64,000 nt of DNA from Brachyspira hampsonii 30446 (lineage in GTDB: Bacteria; Spirochaetota; Brachyspiria; Brachyspirales; Brachyspiraceae): contig NZ_JH994111.1 of NCBI RefSeq assembly GCF_000316195.1, forward strand, positions 1,505,403 through 1,569,402, read 5' to 3'. Numbering within the stretch: position 1 is the stretch's first letter; each line of letters opens with the position of its first letter. This document shows, in pieces, positions 1,847 to 14,845 of this stretch. The translations under genes were made by a program, and so were the position numbers. The notes under the pieces are model-generated. The model was given only the letters and a program-made list of their open reading frames with translations. It ran no database searches and had not been told where the DNA came from.

Positions 1847-2962
1847 TTACTGTTCTATTAAAATATTTTTCTGCGTATCTTTATCAAATATATGAAGTTT
1901 ATTTAAATCAAAATTCATAAATGCACGCTGATCTCTTTCATAATCATCACTTGTATTGATTCTTATTGTAACTTGCAAATCTCCGAAATTCATATACAAA
2001 TAACTTTCAGAACCTATCATCTCAATAACATCAATAATAGCTTGTATTAAATTTTGAGAATTGCTTTCTGATTTATCTTTGTATAAAGTGATATTTTCAG
2101 GTCTTATTCCAAGTACAACTTCTTTTCCATTATAAGAATCATCTATCTTGGAAATTCTTTCATTATTCAATTCAATTTCATATCTGTCAAAAGCAGCATA
2201 CCATTTTCCATCTTTCTTAGAAAGTTTTGCATTTATAAAATTCATTTGAGGTGCCCCAATGAATCCGGCAACAAATAAATTTTTAGGGCTGTTATAAAGA
2301 GTCTTAGCATCATCAACCTGCATAATATCTCCGTCTTTCATAACAACAATTCTAGTACCCATAGTCATAGCTTCTACCTGGTCATGCGTAACATACACAA
2401 ATGTAGTCTGAAGCTGTTTATGAAGTTTAATCAATTCTGTACGCATCTGAACTCTTAATTTAGCATCAAGGTTGGATAAAGGCTCATCTAATAAAAATAC
2501 AGACGGATTTCTCACCATAGCTCTTCCCAAAGCAACTCTTTGACGCTGACCGCCGGATAATGCTTTAGGTTTCCTGTCAAGTAAATGTGCTATATCAAGA
2601 ACTTTAGCTGCCCATTCAACTCTTTTTTTAATTTCATCTTTAGGTGTTTTTCTAAGTTCTAAACCAAAAGCCATATTTTTAAATACAGACATATGCGGAT
2701 ATAAAGCATAATTCTGAAATACCATTGCTATATCCCTGTCTTTTGGTGCTACATCATTAACTAATCTATCCCCTATATACAATTTACCATCTGTTATCTC
2801 CTCAAGACCTGCTATCATACGAAGCGTTGTGGACTTTCCGCATCCGGATGGTCCGACAAGAATCACAAATTCTTTATCAGCTATATCCAAACTAAAATCT
2901 TTAACAACTTCTACATTATTATCATATACTTTTCTTATATGTTCAAATTTGATACTAGACAT
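1847..2962 (-). CDS. Sugar ABC transporter ATP-binding protein (MsmK/UgpC/MalK family)
   Basis: ATPase that powers carbohydrate import through the two permeases upstream. Walker A GPSGCGKST (37-45), Q-loop VFQNYALYPH (Q83), signature LSGGQ (135-139), Walker B VFLLDEP (D159, E160) and switch histidine H193 in VTHDQVEAMT are all present. The C-terminal third has the TOBE/OB segment (VLGIRPENI) typical of MalK-like ATPases, which often serve several sugar permeases. The length of 371 residues is normal. It is last in the operon, after the DUF5107 gene, with GGAAG upstream of the ATG. The exact substrate is unknown. Confidence 0.93.
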   Translation of the reverse strand: MSSIKFEHIRKVYDNNVEVVKDFSLDIADKEFVILVGPSGCGKSTTLRMIAGLEEITDGKLYIGDRLVNDVAPKDRDIAMVFQNYALYPHMSVFKNMAFGLELRKTPKDEIKKRVEWAAKVLDIAHLLDRKPKALSGGQRQRVALGRAMVRNPSVFLLDEPLSNLDAKLRVQMRTELIKLHKQLQTTFVYVTHDQVEAMTMGTRIVVMKDGDIMQVDDAKTLYNSPKNLFVAGFIGAPQMNFINAKLSKKDGKWYAAFDRYEIELNNERISKIDDSYNGKEVVLGIRPENITLYKDKSESNSQNLIQAIIDVIEMIGSESYLYMNFGDLQVTIRINTSDDYERDQRAFMNFDLNKLHIFDKDTQKNILIEQ

Positions 2963-3005: not shown

Positions 3006-5030
3006 TTAAATTTTAACCATTCTAAAATCTAAATTCTCAGGTGCTTCAGTATCCTTTCTTACTTTTTTAATAAGCTCATTATTAAATTCGATACCCTCTC
3101 TCTCCGATTTTAATTTTGCAATATATTCAAAATAAACATCCAATATATAATTTTCACCTTCTCTTATTGTTATCTGCTCCATACTAAATATCTTTTCAAG
3201 TTTTTCATACTGTTCTAAAGCAAGATAAGAACGTGCCGCATATACAGCAGTTTTCTCACAATATCCGTATTTTTCATATAATTGAATTATTTTGTTATAT
3301 TTTTTCAATAAATCTAATAAATAAAAATATTCAACTATAAAAGCCTCATCTGCTTCTTTATTTCCAAATATATTAATGGATTTCTCCATATAATATAATG
3401 ATTTTTCGTAATCTTTTTTATCTTTATAATATACAGATATGTTTCTATATGCTATAGCAGTAGGTTTTATATCTATAGACTTCAACCATAATTCTAAAGC
3501 TTTATCCTCCATAAAGTTTTCATAATAAATAATACCTAAATGAATAAGTACAGCAGCATTCTTATTCTCACATGATTCCAATAAATCTTTAAAATCCAAC
3601 ATATATGAAATAGGAGTATCTTCACTATCTAATTCATCTAAATATCCATTTTCCAAAAGATTAAGCCATAGCATACAATCTTCTTTTATTGAATCTTTAG
3701 GAAATTTTAAAGATTTAGGAGATTTATTTAAATTATACTTTTCTCTCCTCATATCTTCTAATGCTCCCCAACCTTTTCCATAAGCTAATATATTACTTAT
3801 TGGCAAATCAGATTCTTCTGAATATTTTTTAATAAGATTATTCAAATGATTTTCATTCATATTTCTATTAACTATAGATTCAACTTTTTCTCTAGCTTTA
3901 GAATAATCTTCAGCAAATATGATATCATAATCATCTTTTAAATAATCAAAACTAAATGCCTGAACAAATTCTATTGTGCTATCAGCATCCATATCAAAGC
4001 CATTAACCTGAGTAGGCATTATCCCTGCCTGAAGCTCAATATATTCCCCTTCACTTCCTCTTGATAAAAATCTCTCCCATTTTCTTCCGCCTCTAAGATT
4101 ACCCCAGCAGAACATTTTTCTATATCTTAATTTATTAGTAGATCTTTCAAAAAATACAAATCCGTCATTATAAACAGCAGCCTCCCAAGGACTTATAGTT
4201 TTTTTATCAGTTTGAAAAAAATATTCACTTGAATATTCAAAGTTTAAAGGATAACTGCCGTCTTTTACAAAAGGAGTTGTAGGAAGTTTAGAAGCCCCAA
4301 ATTTTTTAATAGAATTTTCTGTAGAGCCAACACTATCAGGATAAATATAGACTATATCATCTGTTGAAGAAAATACTCTGATATTCTTTTCTTCTTTTAC
4401 CGCTATATTAGTCCACCAATACATAGGTTTTTTATAATTATCATCATTAATTATTTTAACATAAACATATAAATTTTTATCACAATCAACAAGTCTGAAA
4501 TCCATTTGATAATATATTCTTTTAGTTCTTTCAAATTCATAAACTCTAAGAAATTCTTTATCATCTTTATCCTTAACTACTGCAAAAAATAAAGGCTCGC
4601 AAGTTTGTAAAGAATGCCCAAATTGAGAAACATTCCATTCTATTCCTCCGGAAAACCATGCATTCCTAGTAGCTAAATTTGCAGTCTGAAAAACAGGATT
4701 TTTAAATAGAATATCTTTTCCTGTTTCTTTATCCTCCATAGAATATAATCTTGCACCATATCCGCATAAAAATACGGCTTTAATTTTATCATTTTCTATT
4801 ACAACAGTATCTAATTTTATATTAGTTTTATTTCTATCGTATCTATCCTGAAGTTTATAAGGAAGCAATCTAAGCCCTATTTCATAACCAATATTTTCCA
4901 TACTCTCTTCGGTTAAAGTTCCATCGCTAATAATATGCTTATCTTTTTGTCTATCTCTGAATATAGGAAGCGGATTCTCTCCTTTTAATAAACTGCCCTC
5001 AATATCTAAATAAGAAGAATATATTTGCAT
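3006..5030 (-). CDS. DUF5107 domain protein with TPR repeats
   Basis: A 674-residue protein without signal peptide, hence probably cytoplasmic. Residues about 40-370 match what I know of DUF5107: a mutarotase-like beta-rich domain with hallmark segments ATRNAWFSGGIEWN, CEPLFFAVVKDKDDKEFLRV and MFCWGNLRGGRKWERFLS. The rest is helical with TPR-like units (for example AVLIHLGIIYYENFMEDKAL and AYRNISVYYKDKKDYEKSLY). DUF5107 proteins have the galactose-mutarotase/glycoside-hydrolase-associated fold, so a carbohydrate role is plausible, but no reaction is established to my knowledge. It lies between a permease gene and the ATPase gene of a sugar ABC operon, which ties it to the imported sugar. Confidence 0.8.
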   Translation of the reverse strand: MQIYSSYLDIEGSLLKGENPLPIFRDRQKDKHIISDGTLTEESMENIGYEIGLRLLPYKLQDRYDRNKTNIKLDTVVIENDKIKAVFLCGYGARLYSMEDKETGKDILFKNPVFQTANLATRNAWFSGGIEWNVSQFGHSLQTCEPLFFAVVKDKDDKEFLRVYEFERTKRIYYQMDFRLVDCDKNLYVYVKIINDDNYKKPMYWWTNIAVKEEKNIRVFSSTDDIVYIYPDSVGSTENSIKKFGASKLPTTPFVKDGSYPLNFEYSSEYFFQTDKKTISPWEAAVYNDGFVFFERSTNKLRYRKMFCWGNLRGGRKWERFLSRGSEGEYIELQAGIMPTQVNGFDMDADSTIEFVQAFSFDYLKDDYDIIFAEDYSKAREKVESIVNRNMNENHLNNLIKKYSEESDLPISNILAYGKGWGALEDMRREKYNLNKSPKSLKFPKDSIKEDCMLWLNLLENGYLDELDSEDTPISYMLDFKDLLESCENKNAAVLIHLGIIYYENFMEDKALELWLKSIDIKPTAIAYRNISVYYKDKKDYEKSLYYMEKSINIFGNKEADEAFIVEYFYLLDLLKKYNKIIQLYEKYGYCEKTAVYAARSYLALEQYEKLEKIFSMEQITIREGENYILDVYFEYIAKLKSEREGIEFNNELIKKVRKDTEAPENLDFRMVKI

Positions 5031-5051
5031 TAAAATATCCTTTTATATATA

Positions 5052-5888
5052 TTAACCTTTTATTGCTCCGCCTGTAACATTAGCTATGATTTTTTCAGAA
5101 AGTATTATATATAATATAAATGTAGGTAAAAATACTATAACAACGGCAGCAAACATACCAGCCCAATCCCCTGTATACCTCATAGACTGAATCATAGAGA
5201 ATAAACCAACAGCAAGAGGTCTCATATTACTGCTATTAGCAAATATTAATGCCATAAAATACTCATTCCAAACGGTAATAAAATTAAATATTGTAACTGT
5301 TATTATTCCGGGCTGAGCTAAAGGAAGCATTATTATCCAAAAAGTTTTCATAGGACTGCATCCGTCTATAGCAGCAGCTTCTTCAAATGTGAAAGATAAA
5401 CTCTTAAAAAATGTTATAAGAAAGAATACTGTAAATGGTATATTAATTCCTATATACAGAAATATCAATACCAATCTTGAGTTAGTCATTTTAAGAGATG
5501 TAACTATACCAAAAAGAGGCATAATAATCATAATAGCAGGTATTCCTAAAGCTGTTACAAATATTTTTTGTATAGTACTGTTAAATCTAAATGGAAATCT
5601 AGCTAATATATAAGCGGCAGGTGCTGATACAACTATTATACCGACACATGAAATTATAGTATAAATAAGAGAATTCAAAAAATATTTGGCTACATTATGA
5701 GTAACTAAGGCTTTAACATAATTTTCCGGGTGAAGTCCGTCTTTAAATAAAGTATTTTGGAATATATTAGGAGTAGTAGAAAAAGAAGCTAATATTATCC
5801 AGCCTATAACTAAAAATGTAAAAGCACACCAAAGAGATACTAATAAATATCCGGGCAGCAATCTAATTTGTTTATGTTTATCTTTCAT
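5052..5888 (-). CDS. Sugar ABC transporter permease (MalG/CUT1 family)
   Basis: Inner-membrane permease of 278 residues with about six hydrophobic segments. The cytoplasmic coupling EAA loop is clear (EEAAAIDGCSPMKTFWIIML, followed by PLAQPG). The N-terminus begins with a membrane segment after a short basic stretch, and the C-terminus ends VTGGAIKG, as is typical of MalG-like subunits. It follows the MalF-like gene by 18 bases and pairs with it. AAGGAT precedes the start. Substrate is not readable from the sequence. Confidence 0.92.
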   Translation of the reverse strand: MKDKHKQIRLLPGYLLVSLWCAFTFLVIGWIILASFSTTPNIFQNTLFKDGLHPENYVKALVTHNVAKYFLNSLIYTIISCVGIIVVSAPAAYILARFPFRFNSTIQKIFVTALGIPAIMIIMPLFGIVTSLKMTNSRLVLIFLYIGINIPFTVFFLITFFKSLSFTFEEAAAIDGCSPMKTFWIIMLPLAQPGIITVTIFNFITVWNEYFMALIFANSSNMRPLAVGLFSMIQSMRYTGDWAGMFAAVVIVFLPTFILYIILSEKIIANVTGGAIKG

Positions 5889-5906
5889 AAAATAAATCCT
5901 TCAAAA

Positions 5907-6821
5907 TTAAAACTCTAATTTCTTATCTTTAAATACTATATTGGTAACAGCAAAAGATATAACAATAATTAAAGTAAGTACAACTCCTACAGCAGCACCA
6001 TTTCCTACATTTCTATCTATAATTACATTATTATTTGCCCCAAACACCTCTTGATACATATAAACCATAGGAGTAACAGTACCAGGCTCAGGAATTAAAG
6101 GCGAGAATAATTGAGACCATACAAAGAAACCAACTGCATTAATAGTCCATAAAACAACATTAGTTCTGATAACATCAGAAAGAAGAGGCAAAGTTATTTG
6201 GAAAAATTGCTGAAATGCATTTGCTCCGTCTATAGTAGCAGCCTCATAAAAATCTGAAGGAATTCTTTCTATACCAGCCATAAATATAAGCATAAAGTAA
6301 CCAACCATACCAAAAGAATAAGCTATAACCAAAGCCATAAAAACATTATCTGGGGAAGTCCATTGAAATTCAGCCAATTTTTCTATATGTAAAAAGCTGA
6401 ATATATTTCTTAAAAGTCCGTATCTTGAATTATAAACATAGTGTATCCACATAGTGGCCATAGCAACTGCAGATACAACATTAGGCAAATATATAATAGA
6501 CCTATAAAATGATTTAAATTTTACTCCTGAAGTAAGAATTACAGCAAAAAGAATTGCAAAGAAAAATATAATAATACCGCCTATAAGCCATATAAAAAAT
6601 ACATTTTTTAAAGACTGCATAAATACTTGACTATTCAATAGGTTGCCGTAATTTCCTAAACCAACAAACTCCCATTCTGAAATTTTTGCAGATATAGAAT
6701 CCATCTTAAAAAAACTCATTATAACAGTTTTTATAGTAGGATAAAAAAAGATTAACAGATAAAGTAAAACTGCTGGAGCTAAAAACAGTATTATCATTGG
6801 TAATCTACTTTTTTTTAACAT
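5907..6821 (-). CDS. Sugar ABC transporter permease (MalF/CUT1 family)
   Basis: Partner permease of 304 residues with about six membrane segments. The first is an N-terminal helix (IILFLAPAVLLYLLIFFYPT), typical of the UgpA/LacF group. The EAA loop is FYEAATIDGANAFQQFFQIT followed by LPLL. AGGAG lies before the ATG. It is separated from the binding-protein gene by a hairpin-bearing gap of 88 bases, so it may be expressed at a lower level than the binding protein. Confidence 0.92.
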   Translation of the reverse strand: MLKKSRLPMIILFLAPAVLLYLLIFFYPTIKTVIMSFFKMDSISAKISEWEFVGLGNYGNLLNSQVFMQSLKNVFFIWLIGGIIIFFFAILFAVILTSGVKFKSFYRSIIYLPNVVSAVAMATMWIHYVYNSRYGLLRNIFSFLHIEKLAEFQWTSPDNVFMALVIAYSFGMVGYFMLIFMAGIERIPSDFYEAATIDGANAFQQFFQITLPLLSDVIRTNVVLWTINAVGFFVWSQLFSPLIPEPGTVTPMVYMYQEVFGANNNVIIDRNVGNGAAVGVVLTLIIVISFAVTNIVFKDKKLEF

Positions 6822-6848
6822 ACTACACTCCTAAAAACTTTAAACATT

Positions 6849-6889
6849 ATGATGCACTTCTAAACAGAAAATATTTAGAAGCACATCAT
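6849..6889 (-). promoter_or_regulatory. Intra-operon hairpin between binding protein and permease genes
   Basis: Inverted repeat with 16-base arms (6849-6864 and 6874-6889), with two mismatched positions, around a 9-base loop. No long T-run follows it on the minus strand, so a strong terminator is unlikely. In other bacterial sugar ABC operons a hairpin at this place protects the binding-protein mRNA or attenuates read-through, giving excess binding protein. Here that role is inferred from position. Confidence 0.6.
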
Positions 6890-6909
6890 ATATAATACAA
6901 ATTGAAATA

Positions 6910-8160
6910 TTATTTTTTTACCTCTTCTATAAATTGTTCAGCGGTATTTTTACCTGTAAGAACGCCTGTAAATGCTGCTGTTATAACCGGAGTTTTATCA
7001 GGATTAAATTCTATACCGCCAGCCCAAGGGTAGCAAGAACCTAATTTAGCGAATACTTCTTTAGCATCTGTTAATTGTTTAGGCCAATCTGTAGTATTAG
7101 CCATAGGAACACCGTAAGTTTTCTCTGCTAATTGTTTATCCCATTCTCCTGTAGTAAGATGAACTATTAATTGGAATACTTCTTCAGGATATTGAGTATT
7201 CTTATTAACTTGGAAAGATTGTCCGCCGTAATTCAAATCATAAAGACCGGATACGCCATTAGGAACTGTAGGATAAGCGAACTGTCCCCAAGGGAAATCA
7301 GGACCTGTTGTAGGCATAATTTCATTTACTAACCAAGTACCATTCAAGTACATAGATACTTCTCCGTTTGCTATTTCCTGCTGACCTTGAGGATATTTAT
7401 TACCAGCCACATTAGGAGATATATAACCTAATTTATACATTTCTTCCCAATCTTTAGCAGCTTGTAAAACTGCCGGATCATCCCATAATCCTTCCTGTAC
7501 TAATTTTTTTACCCAATCAGATCCTTTATATCTTGCAATTTGATAACCAATTATTACATCAACATAAGCATCATCTACAGTTATAGGTATAAATCCTGCT
7601 GCTTTTAATTTACCGCAAGCATCTTTAAACTCTGCCCAAGTCTCAGGAACTTTTGTAATGCCTGCTTTAGCAAAATGATCTTTATTATACATAATTAAAA
7701 AAGTAAACGGCTGATATGGTACAGCATAAAGTTTGCCGTCATCTGTAAAAGTTCTTCCTAAATCTAAAAGTGATTTTATTACAACATCTTGATATGCTTT
7801 TCCATCTGTTGTGTCATAAGTTTTTGTAATATAATCATCTAAAGGCAATGCATATTTACCCCAAGTTCTTATAGTTCTTTCTAAATCTTCATCCCATATA
7901 TCTATTGTTTGATTATTATCCAATGCTGGCTGTAAAGTTTTTCTAATTTCTCTTCCATTCCAGTTAACTTCAACAGTAATATCCGGATATTTTTTCATAA
8001 AATCTTCTATAGCAGCTTTGATAACTTGTCCTTGAGGCTCTACCTCATTCCACATTGACCAATATACTATTTTTTTCTTATTTGGATCATCTGCTTTACC
8101 GCAGGCAAATAAGATAAACAATAAAAATACACCAAAACCTAATAAAAATAACTTCTTCAT
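6910..8160 (-). CDS. Extracellular sugar-binding lipoprotein of ABC importer (CUT1)
   Basis: A 416-residue binding protein with a lipoprotein signal: basic MKK, a hydrophobic core and a lipobox ending in C20 (ILFAC). The mature part has the usual start of family-1 solute-binding proteins (KIVYWSMWNEVEPQGQ), with later segments such as AVPYQPFTFLIMYNKDHFAK, VPETWAEF and EVSMYLNGTWLVNE. It captures the sugar outside the cytoplasmic membrane and delivers it to the two permeases encoded next. It is first in the operon, downstream of a near-consensus promoter. No substrate prediction is made. Confidence 0.93.
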   Translation of the reverse strand: MKKLFLLGFGVFLLFILFACGKADDPNKKKIVYWSMWNEVEPQGQVIKAAIEDFMKKYPDITVEVNWNGREIRKTLQPALDNNQTIDIWDEDLERTIRTWGKYALPLDDYITKTYDTTDGKAYQDVVIKSLLDLGRTFTDDGKLYAVPYQPFTFLIMYNKDHFAKAGITKVPETWAEFKDACGKLKAAGFIPITVDDAYVDVIIGYQIARYKGSDWVKKLVQEGLWDDPAVLQAAKDWEEMYKLGYISPNVAGNKYPQGQQEIANGEVSMYLNGTWLVNEIMPTTGPDFPWGQFAYPTVPNGVSGLYDLNYGGQSFQVNKNTQYPEEVFQLIVHLTTGEWDKQLAEKTYGVPMANTTDWPKQLTDAKEVFAKLGSCYPWAGGIEFNPDKTPVITAAFTGVLTGKNTAEQFIEEVKK

Positions 8161-8209
8161 TTTAGTCTCCTTAAATATATTAAAAACATAAAATGTTATA
8201 TAATTTAGT

Positions 8210-8237
8210 AGTATAGTTAATATTTACCCATTGTCAA
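8210..8237 (-). promoter_or_regulatory. Sigma-70-type promoter of the sugar ABC operon
   Basis: On the minus strand, TTGACA (8232-8237), 16 bases, then TATACT (8210-8215), about 50 bases before the binding-protein ATG. It is a strong match to consensus. The divergent plus-strand operon has its own TTGACA at 8288-8293 in the same 195-base intergenic region, with a poorer -10 (AACTAT, 8312-8317), so both operons could be co-regulated from here. Confidence 0.75.
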
Positions 8238-8355
8238 GTTTTTGTATTCTTATATTTTTATATTAACTAATTTTTATAATTATAGCATTGACAATAACAT
8301 AATAAAGTTTAAACTATTATTATATATATATAAATATTAATTACGGAGGATTTAT

Positions 8356-9213
8356 ATGTTAAAAAAAGGTATAAATGTTTGGGCTTTCCCTGGAGGAACT
8401 TCTTATAAAGATATGTTCACGATTGCAAAAGATGCAGGTTTTGAAGGAATTGAATTAAGCCTTTGTGAAGAAGGACCTTTAGGTTTGAAAAGCTCAGAAA
8501 AAGATATATTAGAAATAAAAAAAATGGCTAATGATATGGGGCTTCAAATACATAGTTTTGCTTCTGATTTAGCTTGGGGAAATCCTCTTACTTCTGAAAA
8601 TGAAAAAATTAGAGAAAATGGAGTAAATAATATAAAAAGACAAATAGAAGTAGCTTCTATACTTGGGGCTGATAGTATTCTTTTAGTGCCAGGTTATGTA
8701 GGAGTTGATTTTATACCAGACAGTGAAGTTATTTATTATGAAGATGCTTATAAAAGAGCCAAAGAATGCATTTCTAAAACTGTAGAAACTGCTGAAAAAT
8801 TTAAAGTTGCTATAGGTATAGAAAATGTTTGGAATAAATTCTTAATTTCTGCTATGGAAATGAAAAACTTTATAGATGAATTCAAAAGCGATTATGTAGG
8901 TTCATATTTTGATGTAGGCAATGTAATTTATATGGGGTATCCTGAACAATGGATAAAAGTTCTTGGAAAAAGAATTAAAAAAGTACATTTCAAAGATTAT
9001 AGAAGAGCGGTAGGTACTTTAGACGGATTTGTTGATTTACTTGCTGGAGATGTTAACTACCCTGATGTTGTTGCTGCTTTAAATGAAGTCGGATATGATA
9101 GTTTCTGTACTGCTGAAATGATTCCACCTTATAAATATTATCCGTATCAGATAATATACAATACTTCTGCTTCTATGGATGCTATTCTTGGAAGAAAGAA
9201 ATTTCCTTGCTGA
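8356..9213 (+). CDS. Sugar phosphate isomerase/epimerase (xylose isomerase-like TIM barrel)
   Basis: A 285-residue TIM-barrel protein of the AP-endonuclease-2/xylose-isomerase-like superfamily. The expected metal-ligand motifs are in order: GIENVWNKF (Glu), SYFDVGNV (Asp), KKVHFKDY (His) and CTAEMIPP (Glu). This is the arrangement seen in hexulose-phosphate 3-epimerases, tagatose 3-epimerases and inosose-type enzymes. CGGAGGA precedes the ATG. It is the first gene of a three-gene operon with two dehydrogenases and diverges from the sugar importer, so it probably acts on the imported sugar or its keto product. The exact substrate is unknown. Confidence 0.85.
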   Translation: MLKKGINVWAFPGGTSYKDMFTIAKDAGFEGIELSLCEEGPLGLKSSEKDILEIKKMANDMGLQIHSFASDLAWGNPLTSENEKIRENGVNNIKRQIEVASILGADSILLVPGYVGVDFIPDSEVIYYEDAYKRAKECISKTVETAEKFKVAIGIENVWNKFLISAMEMKNFIDEFKSDYVGSYFDVGNVIYMGYPEQWIKVLGKRIKKVHFKDYRRAVGTLDGFVDLLAGDVNYPDVVAALNEVGYDSFCTAEMIPPYKYYPYQIIYNTSASMDAILGRKKFPC

Positions 9214-9244
9214 TTGTTTTGATTATAAGAATTAGGAGAAGTTT

Positions 9245-10234
9245 ATGGTAGCTATAATTGGCGGAGGATTTATAAGTAATATACATGCTCAATGTTATAA
9301 AAATCTAGGTGTAAATATAGAGGCTATTGCTGATATAAGCGAAGAAGTAAGAAATAATTTTGCCTCTAAATTTAATTGTAAAGCTTATGAATCTGCTGAA
9401 AAAATGCTTGAAGAAATATCTGAAAAAATAGAAATAGTAGATATATGTGCACCAACTTTTTTACATGAAGAAATGATTGAACTTGCATATAAATATAATA
9501 AACATATTATATGCGAAAAACCTCTATCCATTCATTTAGATAAAGTTGATGAAATAATATCTAAATTTAAAAATTCTGATAAATATTTGATGACAGCACA
9601 GGTAATAAGATTTTGGCCTGAATATGTCAAAATCAAGGAATGGATAGATAATGGAACATTAGGAAATATAAAATTAGTATCTGCCAAAAGATTAGCTCAG
9701 CATCCGAAAAGTAAATGGTTTTATGATCCTTCTAAAAGCGGAGGAGGAGTATTTGAGCTTCATATACATGATACAGATTTTTTATGCTATTTATTTGGAG
9801 ATGTAAAAGAAGTATATGCTAACGGATCTCAAGATGAAAATAAATCTTGGGATTTTATAAACAGTTCTATAAAATTTAAGAATGGAGTGAGTGCCGTTTC
9901 ACAAGGAGCTTTCGGAATTACTGAAAATTATCCATTCACTGCTAATTTTAAAGTAATAGGAGATAAGGGAACTGCTGAATTCAATCTTTCTGCTGGAGTT
10001 AATCTCGACAGCGGAAGTACAAACAGTTTAACACTCTATAGAAATGGACATGAACCTATTGTTGAAAATGTAGGAAATAGAGATGCTTATGAAATAGAAT
10101 TAGAATATTTTATTAACTGCGTAAAAAATAAAACTTATCCTGATATTGTTAATCTTGATTCTATTAGAAAATCCATAGAAACGACTATAAATCTAATAAG
10201 ATCTTTAGAAACGGGAAATGTTATAAAATATTGA
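9245..10234 (+). CDS. Gfo/Idh/MocA-family oxidoreductase, copy 1
   Basis: NAD(P)-dependent sugar or inositol dehydrogenase-type protein of 329 residues. The N-terminal Rossmann domain has GGGFISNIHAQCYKNLGV and the family CEKPLS motif near residue 97. The C-terminal alpha/beta domain carries GGGVFELHIHDTDFLCYLFG with the putative catalytic histidine. GGAG precedes the ATG. It follows the isomerase by 31 bases. Close resemblance to the next gene shows a tandem duplication with divergence. The pair plus the TIM-barrel protein suggests oxidation and rearrangement of an unusual sugar or cyclitol. Confidence 0.88.
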   Translation: MVAIIGGGFISNIHAQCYKNLGVNIEAIADISEEVRNNFASKFNCKAYESAEKMLEEISEKIEIVDICAPTFLHEEMIELAYKYNKHIICEKPLSIHLDKVDEIISKFKNSDKYLMTAQVIRFWPEYVKIKEWIDNGTLGNIKLVSAKRLAQHPKSKWFYDPSKSGGGVFELHIHDTDFLCYLFGDVKEVYANGSQDENKSWDFINSSIKFKNGVSAVSQGAFGITENYPFTANFKVIGDKGTAEFNLSAGVNLDSGSTNSLTLYRNGHEPIVENVGNRDAYEIELEYFINCVKNKTYPDIVNLDSIRKSIETTINLIRSLETGNVIKY

Positions 10235-10257
10235 TAATTTATTTTAAGGAGTAAAAA

Positions 10258-11259
10258 ATGGTAAAAGTGGCAATAGTAGGCGGCGGTTTTATGGGTACAA
10301 CCCATGCCAAAGGATATAAAAATATTGGTGTAGAAATTGTTGCTATTGCGGATATAGATAAAAAAGCAAAAGAAGACTTTATGAAAACTTATAATTGTAA
10401 AGGATTCGATACTGCTCAAAGCATGATGGAAGCTATACATTCTGAAATAGATTTCCTAGATGTATGCATACCAACTTATCAGCATGAAGAAATGGTTTTA
10501 CTTGCGGCAAAATATAATAAGCATGTACTAAGTGAAAAACCATTTGCTTTAACTTTAGAAGCTATAGACAATATGCTTGATGCTGTTCAAAAATCAAATA
10601 GTATATTTATGATAGGACAAGTACTGCATTTCTGGCCTGAATATGCTAAAATTAAAGAATGGGTTGATCAAGGCATATTCGGAGAAATTAAATTAGCTAC
10701 TGCAGTAAGACTTGGACAGCACCCTGTAAGCGAATGGTATGGAGATCCTAAAAAAAGCGGAGGCGGTATATATGACTTGCATGTTCATGATATAGATTTT
10801 TTATGTTATTTATTTGGAGATGTTGAAGAAGTATACGCTACAGGAAAAAAAGCTAGAAAAGATTCTTGGAATTTTGTTGACAGTACATTGAGATTCAAAA
10901 ATGGGGTAAATGCAACTGCTCAGGCGGCTTTTGGTATTACTGATAACTATCCTTTCTCTATGAATTTAAGAATAGTCGGTGAAAAAGCTACAGCTGAATT
11001 TTCATTCTCAGCTGGATTTAATTTAGAAGATATAGCTTCTGCTAGAAATTCTTTAATCTTATATAGAAACGGAGAACAACCGCATCAGGAACCTCCAAGC
11101 ACAAGAGATCCTTATGAAATAGAAGTAGAATATTTTGCTAATTGCGTTAAAGAAGGCAAGCAGCCTGAAATTGTAAAACCTAAAGAAGTAAAAAAATCTA
11201 TACAAGCTATTTTAGCTTTGATTAAATCATTAGAAACAGGTCAGGTAGTTAAAATATAA
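10258..11259 (+). CDS. Gfo/Idh/MocA-family oxidoreductase, copy 2
   Basis: Paralogue of the preceding gene, 333 residues, with the same landmarks: GGGFMGTTHAKGYKNIGV (nucleotide-binding loop), SEKPFALT and GGGIYDLHVHDIDFLCYLFG. The two proteins align without large gaps, including the ends (SLETGNVIKY versus SLETGQVVKI). AAGGAG lies before the ATG, and the gap to copy 1 is 23 bases. Two dehydrogenases may act on different carbons, as in some inositol or 3-keto-sugar pathways, or may form a heteromer; neither is shown by the sequence. It ends in a terminator at 11280. Confidence 0.88.
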   Translation: MVKVAIVGGGFMGTTHAKGYKNIGVEIVAIADIDKKAKEDFMKTYNCKGFDTAQSMMEAIHSEIDFLDVCIPTYQHEEMVLLAAKYNKHVLSEKPFALTLEAIDNMLDAVQKSNSIFMIGQVLHFWPEYAKIKEWVDQGIFGEIKLATAVRLGQHPVSEWYGDPKKSGGGIYDLHVHDIDFLCYLFGDVEEVYATGKKARKDSWNFVDSTLRFKNGVNATAQAAFGITDNYPFSMNLRIVGEKATAEFSFSAGFNLEDIASARNSLILYRNGEQPHQEPPSTRDPYEIEVEYFANCVKEGKQPEIVKPKEVKKSIQAILALIKSLETGQVVKI

Positions 11260-11319: not shown

Positions 11320-12318
11320 TTAAATTACAAATTTTTTAAATTCATTTGCAAGTTCATTAGCATTTGTACCGACAACTATATGAATCTCACTATCATTTAT
11401 CTTTTCAACAGCCGGATAATATTTCTTTATACTTTCAATATCAACTTTATTAATATCTTTTATTTCTAGTCTTAATCTAGTAGCACAATTACTTACTTTA
11501 GTTATATTTTCTATTCCACCTACTAATGGAAGAAGCAATGCTGTTTTTACACTTTGACTTTCTAATAACTTTTCTAAATCATCAGCAAGCTCACTTACGG
11601 AAGTTCCAACTATTATATGCAATTCTGTATCACTTATCTTTTGCACCGCAGGATAATATTTCTTTATACTTTCAGCATCAGCTTTATTAACATCTTTTAA
11701 AGTAAGCCTTAATCTAGTAGCACAATTATTAACTTTTACTATATTTTCTACCCCTCCAAGTAAAGGAATAAGATTTAAAGCATCATTAGCATAAGTTATA
11801 TTTTTATTATTAGTTTCATAAGAAGCAATCAGCTTTTCTAAATCATCAGCAAGCTCGCTTACAGAAGTTCCAACTATTATATGCACTTCTTTATCGCTTA
11901 TCTTCTGTACGGCTGGATAATATTTTTTTATCTCTTCTGCATTTACTTTATCAGCATCTTTAACCTCGAGTCTCAATCTAGTAGCACAATTATTAACCTT
12001 TACTATATTTTCTCTGCCTCCAAGTAAAGGAAGAAGAGTCATAGCCATATTAGAAGGATCATCATCGAAATCTAATATTCGCTCTAAAGATTCAGCAAGT
12101 TTGCTTGCATTTGTACCAACTATTATATGCACTTCTTTATCGCTTATCTTTTGTACGGCTGGATAATATTTTTTTATCTCTTCAGTATTTACCTTATCAG
12201 CATCTTTCACCTCAAGTCTTAATCTAGTGGCACAGTTATTTACTTTTACTATATTTGCTCTTCCGCCTAGTAAATTCATAGGAAGTATAAACTTTATATC
12301 TTTTTTATTTGACTGCAT
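11320..12318 (-). CDS. Stand-alone protein of four tandem PTS EIIB domains (glucose/GlcNAc type)
   Basis: A 332-residue protein made almost entirely of four repeats of about 80-90 residues. Each repeat reads L(L/V)GG..NI.KV.NCATRLRL, then IKKYYPAV.KI and HI(I/V)VGT, the signature of the glucose-family EIIB domain. The phosphorylatable cysteine is kept in all four (C29, C111, C199, C278). Repeats 1 and 2 are nearly identical over 60 residues; repeats 3 and 4 are more diverged. There is no membrane segment, EIIC, EIIA or HPr part. The last repeat ends at the stop codon, and GAGG precedes the ATG. It lies downstream of an EIICB gene that has its own EIIB and its own terminator. It could receive phosphoryl groups from EIIA and act as a donor, buffer or regulator; this is inference. 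Normal EIIB proteins carry one domain. Confidence 0.9.
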   Translation of the reverse strand: MQSNKKDIKFILPMNLLGGRANIVKVNNCATRLRLEVKDADKVNTEEIKKYYPAVQKISDKEVHIIVGTNASKLAESLERILDFDDDPSNMAMTLLPLLGGRENIVKVNNCATRLRLEVKDADKVNAEEIKKYYPAVQKISDKEVHIIVGTSVSELADDLEKLIASYETNNKNITYANDALNLIPLLGGVENIVKVNNCATRLRLTLKDVNKADAESIKKYYPAVQKISDTELHIIVGTSVSELADDLEKLLESQSVKTALLLPLVGGIENITKVSNCATRLRLEIKDINKVDIESIKKYYPAVEKINDSEIHIVVGTNANELANEFKKFVI

Positions 12319-12378
12319 TATTAAACCTCTATATTATGATATATAATACTAACATAATATTTATTTTATTTCTAGTAA

Positions 12379-12413
12379 TAAAAAAGGCCTGCAATAATAA
12401 ATAATGCAAGCCT
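12379..12413 (-). terminator. Rho-independent terminator of the EIICB gene
   Basis: Arms at 12385-12393 and 12405-12413 (AGGCCTGCA / TGCAAGCCT, one mismatch) are followed on the minus strand by a run of six T. It ends the EIICB transcript and so makes the tetra-EIIB gene at least partly a separate unit. Confidence 0.75.
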
Positions 12414-12434: not shown

Positions 12435-13895
12435 TTATTTATTAACTAATTTTTTAAACTCATCTGCTAAGAATTGAACATCGGTACCTACTATCACCTG
12501 TACAGAAGTTTTTCCCGGTTTTAATACTCCAGGGAAAGATTTCTTAATTTCAGCATCTTTTATTATACTATTATCTTTTACTTCTAATCTCAATCTAGTA
12601 GCACAGTTATCAACATTAACTATATTCTCAACACCGCCTAATAAAGGAAGCAAAAGAATAGCCTTATCGGCATAAGATTTATTAGAAACACTTGAAACAG
12701 CACTTTCATTGGAATCATCATCCTCTCTGCCAGGAGTTTTTAAATCAAATTTTCTAATAGCAAAATCGAATATAACAAAATATAATACAAAGAATACTAA
12801 ACCTTGTACCACCAACATATACCAATTAACAGCTAATGGATTTCTAGTAGAAAGAACTAAATCGATAAAACCAGCAGAAAATCCGAAACCAGCCATCCAT
12901 TTCATACTAGCAGCAATAATTAATGATATACAAGTTAATGCTGCATGTACTAAATATAAAGCAGGAGCAACAAACATAAATGAGAATTCTATAGGTTCTG
13001 TAACGCCTGTAAAGAAGCTTGCAAAAGCAGCAGCCAACATTATAGATCTGATATTAGCTCTATTCTCAGGCTTAGCATTTTTAATGAATGCCAAACAAGC
13101 ACCTACTAATCCGAACATCATAATAGGGAAAAATCCTGCCTGATACATACCTGTTTGTCCGATAATAGCTTTTCCTGCATCTATAGAAGCCTGACCGCCT
13201 AAGAAATTAGGTATATCATTGATACCGGCAACATCAAACCAGAATACTGAGTTAAGAGCATGGTGCAAACCAACAGGTATTAATAATCTATTGAAGAAAC
13301 CATAAATACCTGCACCTATAGGACCAAGACCTATTATAGCTTCTCCAAATCCTACTAAAGCTCCGTAAACAACAGGCCAAATAAGCATTAAAATAAAAGA
13401 AACAACCATCATAACTACAGAAGTTACTATAGGTACAAATCTTCTTCCGCTGAAGAATGCCAAAAATTTAGGAAGTTCTACATTCCAGAATTTATTATAT
13501 AAAGCACCCGCAATAACTCCGCAAAGTATACCTATAAATTGGTTATTAATTTTAGCAAAACCAGGAGCTACATCAGCAACATCTTTACTTTGAATCATAG
13601 CTACTGTTGCAGGAGCTAAAAGAGTTGTAACAACGAGGAAAGCAACCAAACCAGCTAGAGCAGCAGCACCATTTCTATCATTAGACATACCGAACGCAAC
13701 ACCAATAGCAAAAAGTATAGGCATATTGTCTATAATAGATCCACCTGCTTTAATAAAAAATGCCGCAACAGGACTTTGAGCACCCCATCCATTTGGGTCA
13801 ATCCAATAACCTATTCCTAAAAGAATAGCTGCAGCTGGTAATACAGCAACCGGAACCATTAGAGACTTACCTATTCTTTGTAGATAATTAAACAT
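12435..13895 (-). CDS. nagE: PTS EIICB permease, N-acetylglucosamine/glucose type (NagE-like)
   Basis: Sugar-phosphorylating membrane permease of 486 residues. The EIIC domain (about 1-390) begins MFNYLQRIGKSLMVPVAVLP and has about ten membrane segments. GAGIYGFFNRLLIPVGLHHA, followed by LN, matches the NagE pattern better than PtsG. GVTEPIEFSFMFVAP is the conserved sugar-site Glu loop. A short acidic linker (DDDSNESAVSS) leads to the EIIB domain with phosphocysteine C431 in DNCATRLRL. No EIIA domain is fused; the divergent crr-like gene probably supplies it. GGAGG lies before the ATG. GlcNAc specificity is inferred from sequence resemblance only. Confidence 0.88.
   Translation of the reverse strand: MFNYLQRIGKSLMVPVAVLPAAAILLGIGYWIDPNGWGAQSPVAAFFIKAGGSIIDNMPILFAIGVAFGMSNDRNGAAALAGLVAFLVVTTLLAPATVAMIQSKDVADVAPGFAKINNQFIGILCGVIAGALYNKFWNVELPKFLAFFSGRRFVPIVTSVVMMVVSFILMLIWPVVYGALVGFGEAIIGLGPIGAGIYGFFNRLLIPVGLHHALNSVFWFDVAGINDIPNFLGGQASIDAGKAIIGQTGMYQAGFFPIMMFGLVGACLAFIKNAKPENRANIRSIMLAAAFASFFTGVTEPIEFSFMFVAPALYLVHAALTCISLIIAASMKWMAGFGFSAGFIDLVLSTRNPLAVNWYMLVVQGLVFFVLYFVIFDFAIRKFDLKTPGREDDDSNESAVSSVSNKSYADKAILLLPLLGGVENIVNVDNCATRLRLEVKDNSIIKDAEIKKSFPGVLKPGKTSVQVIVGTDVQFLADEFKKLVNK

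Positions 13896-14365: not shown

Positions 14366-14845
<480 letters not shown>

Follow-up and report, generated by a model that had tools for sequence, protein, structure and literature searches.

Domain architecture of the EIIB array

What might a bacterium do with a protein that strings together four EIIB domains of the PTS and carries no EIIC domain? The question is posed by an open reading frame (11320..12318, minus strand) in the window, that is, the entire stretch of 64,000 nucleotides of Brachyspira hampsonii DNA analyzed here. The frame begins with an ATG codon, contains no internal stop codon, and encodes a protein of 332 amino acids that matches the Pfam PTS_EIIB profile (PF00367) in four stretches (187 bits in total versus a cut-off of 27; E = 2.6e-56) and scores above the curated cut-off of TIGR00826 (131 versus 45.75); the Pfam profile search returned no PTS_EIIC match in it. 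According to our alignment, the four Glc-family domains, all encoded on the minus strand, comprise residues 11-83 (12070..12288; C29 and H64), 93-165 (11824..12042; C111 and H146), 181-253 (11560..11778; C199 and H234), and 260-332 (11323..11541; C278 and H313), with each of the four cysteines residing in an NCATRLRL motif. At the DNA level, the gene holds four direct repeats with spacings of 237, 264, and 246 nt. Reading frame, profile matches and alignment thus bear out the original prediction of four EIIB domains with intact cysteines and without an EIIC. The concern that the array could be an assembly artefact or a frameshifted version of a single EIIB gene is excluded by the orthologues present in many independent assemblies.

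An AlphaFold model of the protein predicts four separate EIIB folds (mean pLDDT 78.9; pTM 0.47), with a low-confidence linker (residues 167-173) between domains 1-2 and domains 3-4; at a pTM of 0.47, the model speaks for the folds of the individual domains and not for their relative placement. The best Foldseek match of this model was the E. coli IIB(Glc) domain in its complex with IIA (1o2f, chain B; target-normalised TM 0.89), and the Mlc/EIIB complex 3bp8 was returned as well. The predicted fold is consequently that of EIIB(Glc) of PtsG (1iba, 3bp3, 3bp8, 1o2f; target-normalised TM 0.85-0.89 for 3bp3, 3bp8, and 1o2f), with which the array also shares the residues corresponding to Cys421, Arg424, and Arg426. 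However, the E. coli protein possesses a single EIIB domain at the C-terminus of EIIC, and it carries Gln456 where the array carries His.

A histidine replaces a near-invariant glutamine in every domain

The Cys, Ala, Thr, and both Arg residues of the CATRxR motif are invariant in all 74 array domains that we aligned. Since the Cys, the Thr, and the two Arg residues are retained in each domain, selection appears to maintain every site and not just one. The position located 35 residues after the Cys, aligned to Gln456 of E. coli PtsG, is a His in 74/74 array domains, whereas a Gln is found in the NagE EIIB of all 26 Brachyspira species and in the seven EIIBs of the window's genome outside the array (NagE and six others). 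Among 40 EIIBs of other spirochaete genomes, 39 likewise have a Gln here and one has a Glu. This position lies outside the 34-position Pfam model and does not define the family, even though the Gln is nearly invariant. The exchange of Gln for His in every array domain is a new observation that the original prediction had overlooked. In a phylogenetic tree, a single branch separates the array domains from the NagE EIIBs (support 99/97, from few alignment columns and with long branches). One further locus (L159, G237) encodes an EIIB within an open frame of 1177 amino acids, and a second frame there displays an EIIB-like motif with a Glu at the Gln position. A search of the open-access literature, with most subscription journals outside its scope, yielded no Gln456 mutant data.

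Relationship to known EIIB proteins

A close relative is the EIIB of the adjacent NagE protein (TIGR01998), which belongs to the same domain family, is about 50% identical, and shares the NCATRLRL phosphorylation loop; in contrast to it, the array consists of four domains, lacks EIIC, and has a His for the Gln in each of them. The array reaches only 196.9 bits on TIGR01998 (cut-off 553.2), matches this model at its EIIB end only, and is hence not a NagE transporter. EIIBs without EIIC are known, judging by the model names, as lone PTS sugar transporter subunits IIB (NF007255) and as triosephosphate isomerase-EIIB fusions (NF011497), but these models (161 and 357 positions, respectively) match one EIIB stretch at a time, and the array stays far below their cut-offs. 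Within 393 Spirochaetota genomes, we found no EIIC-less tandem EIIB array outside Brachyspira at E<=1e-12, and a single EIIC-EIIB-EIIB protein. The latter, a NagE from a different spirochaete family (G316), possesses tandem EIIBs, the first with a His like the array domains; it differs from the array in being fused to EIIC and in having two EIIBs, the second with a Gln. Its gene (L121, 1966-4023) is followed by that for an EIIA-HPr-EI fusion of 852 amino acids. In plasmid and phage collections, we detected no array, and the best places there spanned approximately 270-290 bases, a single EIIB being matched by all four query domains. From these Spirochaetota, plasmid, and phage searches, the array is provisionally confined to Brachyspira. 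We found no description of a tandem-EIIB array in the open-access literature (most subscription journals lay outside this search), and we regard the protein as a new architecture within a known domain family, with a variant active site.

Distribution and history of the array in Brachyspira

Our genome set comprised 26 Brachyspira species, that of the window having a size of 3.04 Mb in four contigs. Array genes occur in 18 of these species, and 16 of them harbor an intact four-domain reading frame; besides the window's own, the 15 other four-domain arrays are 66-95% identical to it and are encoded by stop-free frames of 329-348 amino acids. In G007, the array is truncated by contig ends, and that of G017 contains three domains. 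G008 and G014 possess an additional two-domain and three-domain paralogue, respectively, so that the number of domains varies between species (3, 4, 4+2, and 4+3). The first domain of the three-domain paralogue (L038, 375-1106) is one residue short in the strand that follows the His (VHI-VGT). No array was found in the remaining eight species (G001, G003, G010, G011, G012, G013, G016, and G019), some of whose assemblies are fragmented, and two changes are needed to explain its presence and absence on the NagE tree. With dN/dS values of 0.12-0.31 among orthologues, the sequence comparison indicates that the array is under purifying selection.

Across species, the domains group mainly by their position in the array (7 label changes on the tree versus a mean of 35.9 after shuffling), with some module replacement, chiefly of domain 2. 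The four positions hence appear to be largely orthologous. Repeats 1 and 2 had been described as almost identical; this is true for a core of some 54 residues, in which they differ at two positions, but not for the whole 73-residue domain, over which identity is 78% (amino acids) and 81% (nucleotides). The identity between the two repeats is patchy, in a pattern that differs among G000, G004, and G005, and we read it as the probable signature of gene conversion. A recent expansion by duplication, as originally proposed, does not agree with a four-domain array that is common to 16 species, with domains that group by position, and with repeats 1 and 2 that match in lineage-specific patches.

A conserved leader precedes the array gene

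Just upstream of the start codon lies a leader of about 30 nt, AAATAAAATAAATATTATGTTAGTATTATA (12342..12371, minus strand), that the original prediction had also overlooked. A similar block precedes 19 of the 19 arrays examined, including those relocated to the ftsK region and both paralogues in two species; in the window and in the whole genome, the element is single-copy when up to three mismatches are allowed. The interval between nagE and the array contains a hairpin with a subsequent T-run (12380..12413, minus strand) that resembles an intrinsic terminator. Such a structure was present in the nagE-array intergenic regions of all 14 species examined, the stem sequence not being the same. 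A leader that is conserved even at relocated arrays, together with a terminator after nagE, points to independent transcription of the array, and the leader is probably its own promoter or operator. No Rfam matches were found in the window.

Genes in the vicinity of the array

As originally noted, the array is clustered with an EIICB and a lone EIIA. The EIICB (12435..13895, minus strand; PF02378 and PF00367) is a GlcNAc-specific protein of the NagE type, as judged by its TIGR01998 score (639.8 versus a cut-off of 553.2), and its own EIIB has the usual Gln (SVQVIVG). The divergently oriented stand-alone EIIA of the Glc family (14381..14845, plus strand; PF00358) is the likely phosphoryl donor. 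The usual gene order is HK, NtrC, the divergent EIIA, NagE, and the array, followed by DusB, by a UgpC ATPase, or by an inserted IolE-Gfo/Idh-ABC cassette and then the ATPase. The array adjoins nagE in most species, and every nagE-linked array whose surroundings were completely covered had the divergent EIIA in its immediate neighborhood. The nagE gene of G006 (L103, about 7347-8838) carries a single in-frame stop that separates frames of 135 and 361 amino acids within one uninterrupted tblastn alignment; either a genuine nonsense mutation or an error of sequencing may account for it. The array downstream of this nagE has nevertheless an intact frame, which, should the stop be genuine, would agree with a function that does not depend strictly on NagE.

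In the window, the UgpC/MalK-type ABC ATPase (1847..2962, minus strand; PRK11650 UgpC score above the cut-off) and the array are about 8 kb apart. The cassette between them (3006-11259) encodes an IolE-like isomerase, two Gfo/Idh oxidoreductases, and a sugar ABC importer with a DUF5107/TPR protein; it occupies this place in four examined species (G000, G004, G017, and, up to the contig end, G024). In the array-free G011, the isomerase and oxidoreductase genes of the cassette follow nagE, and the ABC genes reside with the ATPase on another contig. In four other species (G009, G021, G002, and G020), the ATPase gene is the next same-strand gene after the array at a distance of 64-97 bp. In the B. 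alvinipulli group (L107, L109, and L110), array and ATPase are found together between ftsK and an open reading frame of 628-630 amino acids, and nagE lies beside dusB at the old site in the two genomes read there. We considered the ATPase as an obligate partner of the array and rejected this idea: no orthologue was found at E<=1e-80 in three array-bearing species (G005, G006, and G025), and at least four array-free species possess one.

A proposed model for the function of the array

How, then, might the array operate? Our best guess, held tentatively, is that it serves as a phosphoryl buffer or EIIA sink. On this view, an EIIB like that of NagE would have given rise to four linked domains in one soluble protein, and the NCATRLRL cysteine of each domain would receive a phosphoryl group from PEP via EI, HPr, and the lone EIIA. 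The charging of these multiple sites by EIIA would be reversible, so that the protein would act as a phosphoryl store and not as a committed donor to sugar, and it could thereby buffer, or report on, the extent to which the EIIA/NagE branch is phosphorylated. Candidate partners are encoded in the genome, which has four matches to the HPr family (PF00381), one of them a stand-alone frame of 95 amino acids, and two to EIIA (PF00358), namely the lone EIIA discussed here and one fused in an EIICBA frame of 753 amino acids. PTS phosphotransfer in E. coli is known to equilibrate rapidly and reversibly (PMC4996493). The invariant cysteines and arginines argue that each domain is phosphorylated and that the number of sites matters; a variable number of domains is likewise expected if this number, and not a fixed geometry, is important. 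In E. coli, the two EIIB arginines act mainly in donor activity to glucose, and EIIB remains able to receive phosphate from EIIA when Arg is changed to Lys (PMC9631020, citing Lanz and Erni 1998). The retention of the arginines is in keeping with a domain whose task includes both acceptance and return of phosphate. Against the proposed buffer or sink counts the situation in the B. alvinipulli group, where the array can be unlinked from nagE and EIIA.

We consider it less probable, and on balance unlikely, that the domains in one phosphorylation state bind to a regulator or transporter and thereby inhibit it, by analogy with the capture of the ROK repressor Mlc by dephospho-EIICB(Glc) in E. coli (PMC3901232) or with the action of EIIA(Glc) on MalK. 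The UgpC-type ATPase would be one candidate target, being the neighbor of the array at 64-97 bp in four species and having moved with it, but without nagE, to a new site in the B. alvinipulli group. However, this link is not obligate, about 8 kb separate the two genes in the window, and array and ATPase do not co-occur in the way expected for a MalK/UgpC inhibitor of the inducer-exclusion type. A ROK protein would be the other candidate; the genome encodes one of 397 amino acids with an N-terminal extension of HTH-repressor length, and the Foldseek match to the Mlc/EIIB complex is in line with it, but the 3.8 kb examined there showed no PTS gene next to that of the ROK protein.

Somewhat less likely still is a soluble donor that hands phosphate to sugar on the IIC of NagE or of another EIIC, thereby raising flux or sharing EIIB. 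The retained arginines keep this alternative alive, as they could equally be compatible with donation to sugar through NagE: both are present in 74/74 domains and, in E. coli, are required for passing phosphate to glucose (PMC9631020); moreover, nagE is adjacent in most species. Yet the His in every domain and the missing EIIC argue against simple sugar phosphorylation, NagE has its own normal EIIB, and in B. subtilis, growth on glucose suffers severely when the domains of PtsG are separated (PMC6148471). The original prediction had suggested a donor to EIICs that lack EIIB, a suggestion weakened by the inventory of the genome: of seven PTS_EIIC proteins found, six carry EIIB in the same open reading frame, the remaining one, a fructose-type EIIABC, has a IIB-like domain of its own, and no EIIB-less Glc-family EIIC was found. 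The lone EIIB elsewhere in the genome (92 amino acids) is of the Gln type.

A two-step relay, in which the His-type EIIB would take up phosphate from EIIA and hand it on to the Gln-type EIIB of NagE, is improbable. Its model would be the G316 NagE, with EIIC, EIIB(His), and EIIB(Gln) in one chain of 685 amino acids, but the tree is compatible with either kinship of this His domain with the array or convergence, EIIA phosphorylates Gln-type EIIBs directly in known systems, and eight Brachyspira species have NagE without the array. That the array is a non-functional leftover or a neutral repeat expansion, as its lack in 8 of 26 species and its variable domain number might suggest, is very hard to reconcile with purifying selection, invariant active-site residues, the conserved leader, and relocation with the reading frame intact.

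PTS phosphorelays are usually described with one phosphosite per step. The array might represent an undescribed class of PTS component, for which we see a sizable but less than even chance: a free-standing, multi-site phosphocysteine protein whose His-for-Gln sites would store phosphoryl groups or sense phosphorylated EIIA and which would not engage in sugar transport. If this is true, Brachyspira, a genus that includes pig pathogens, would offer a natural test system for buffers or multivalent sensors in phosphorelays and for the role of the near-invariant Gln of EIIB.
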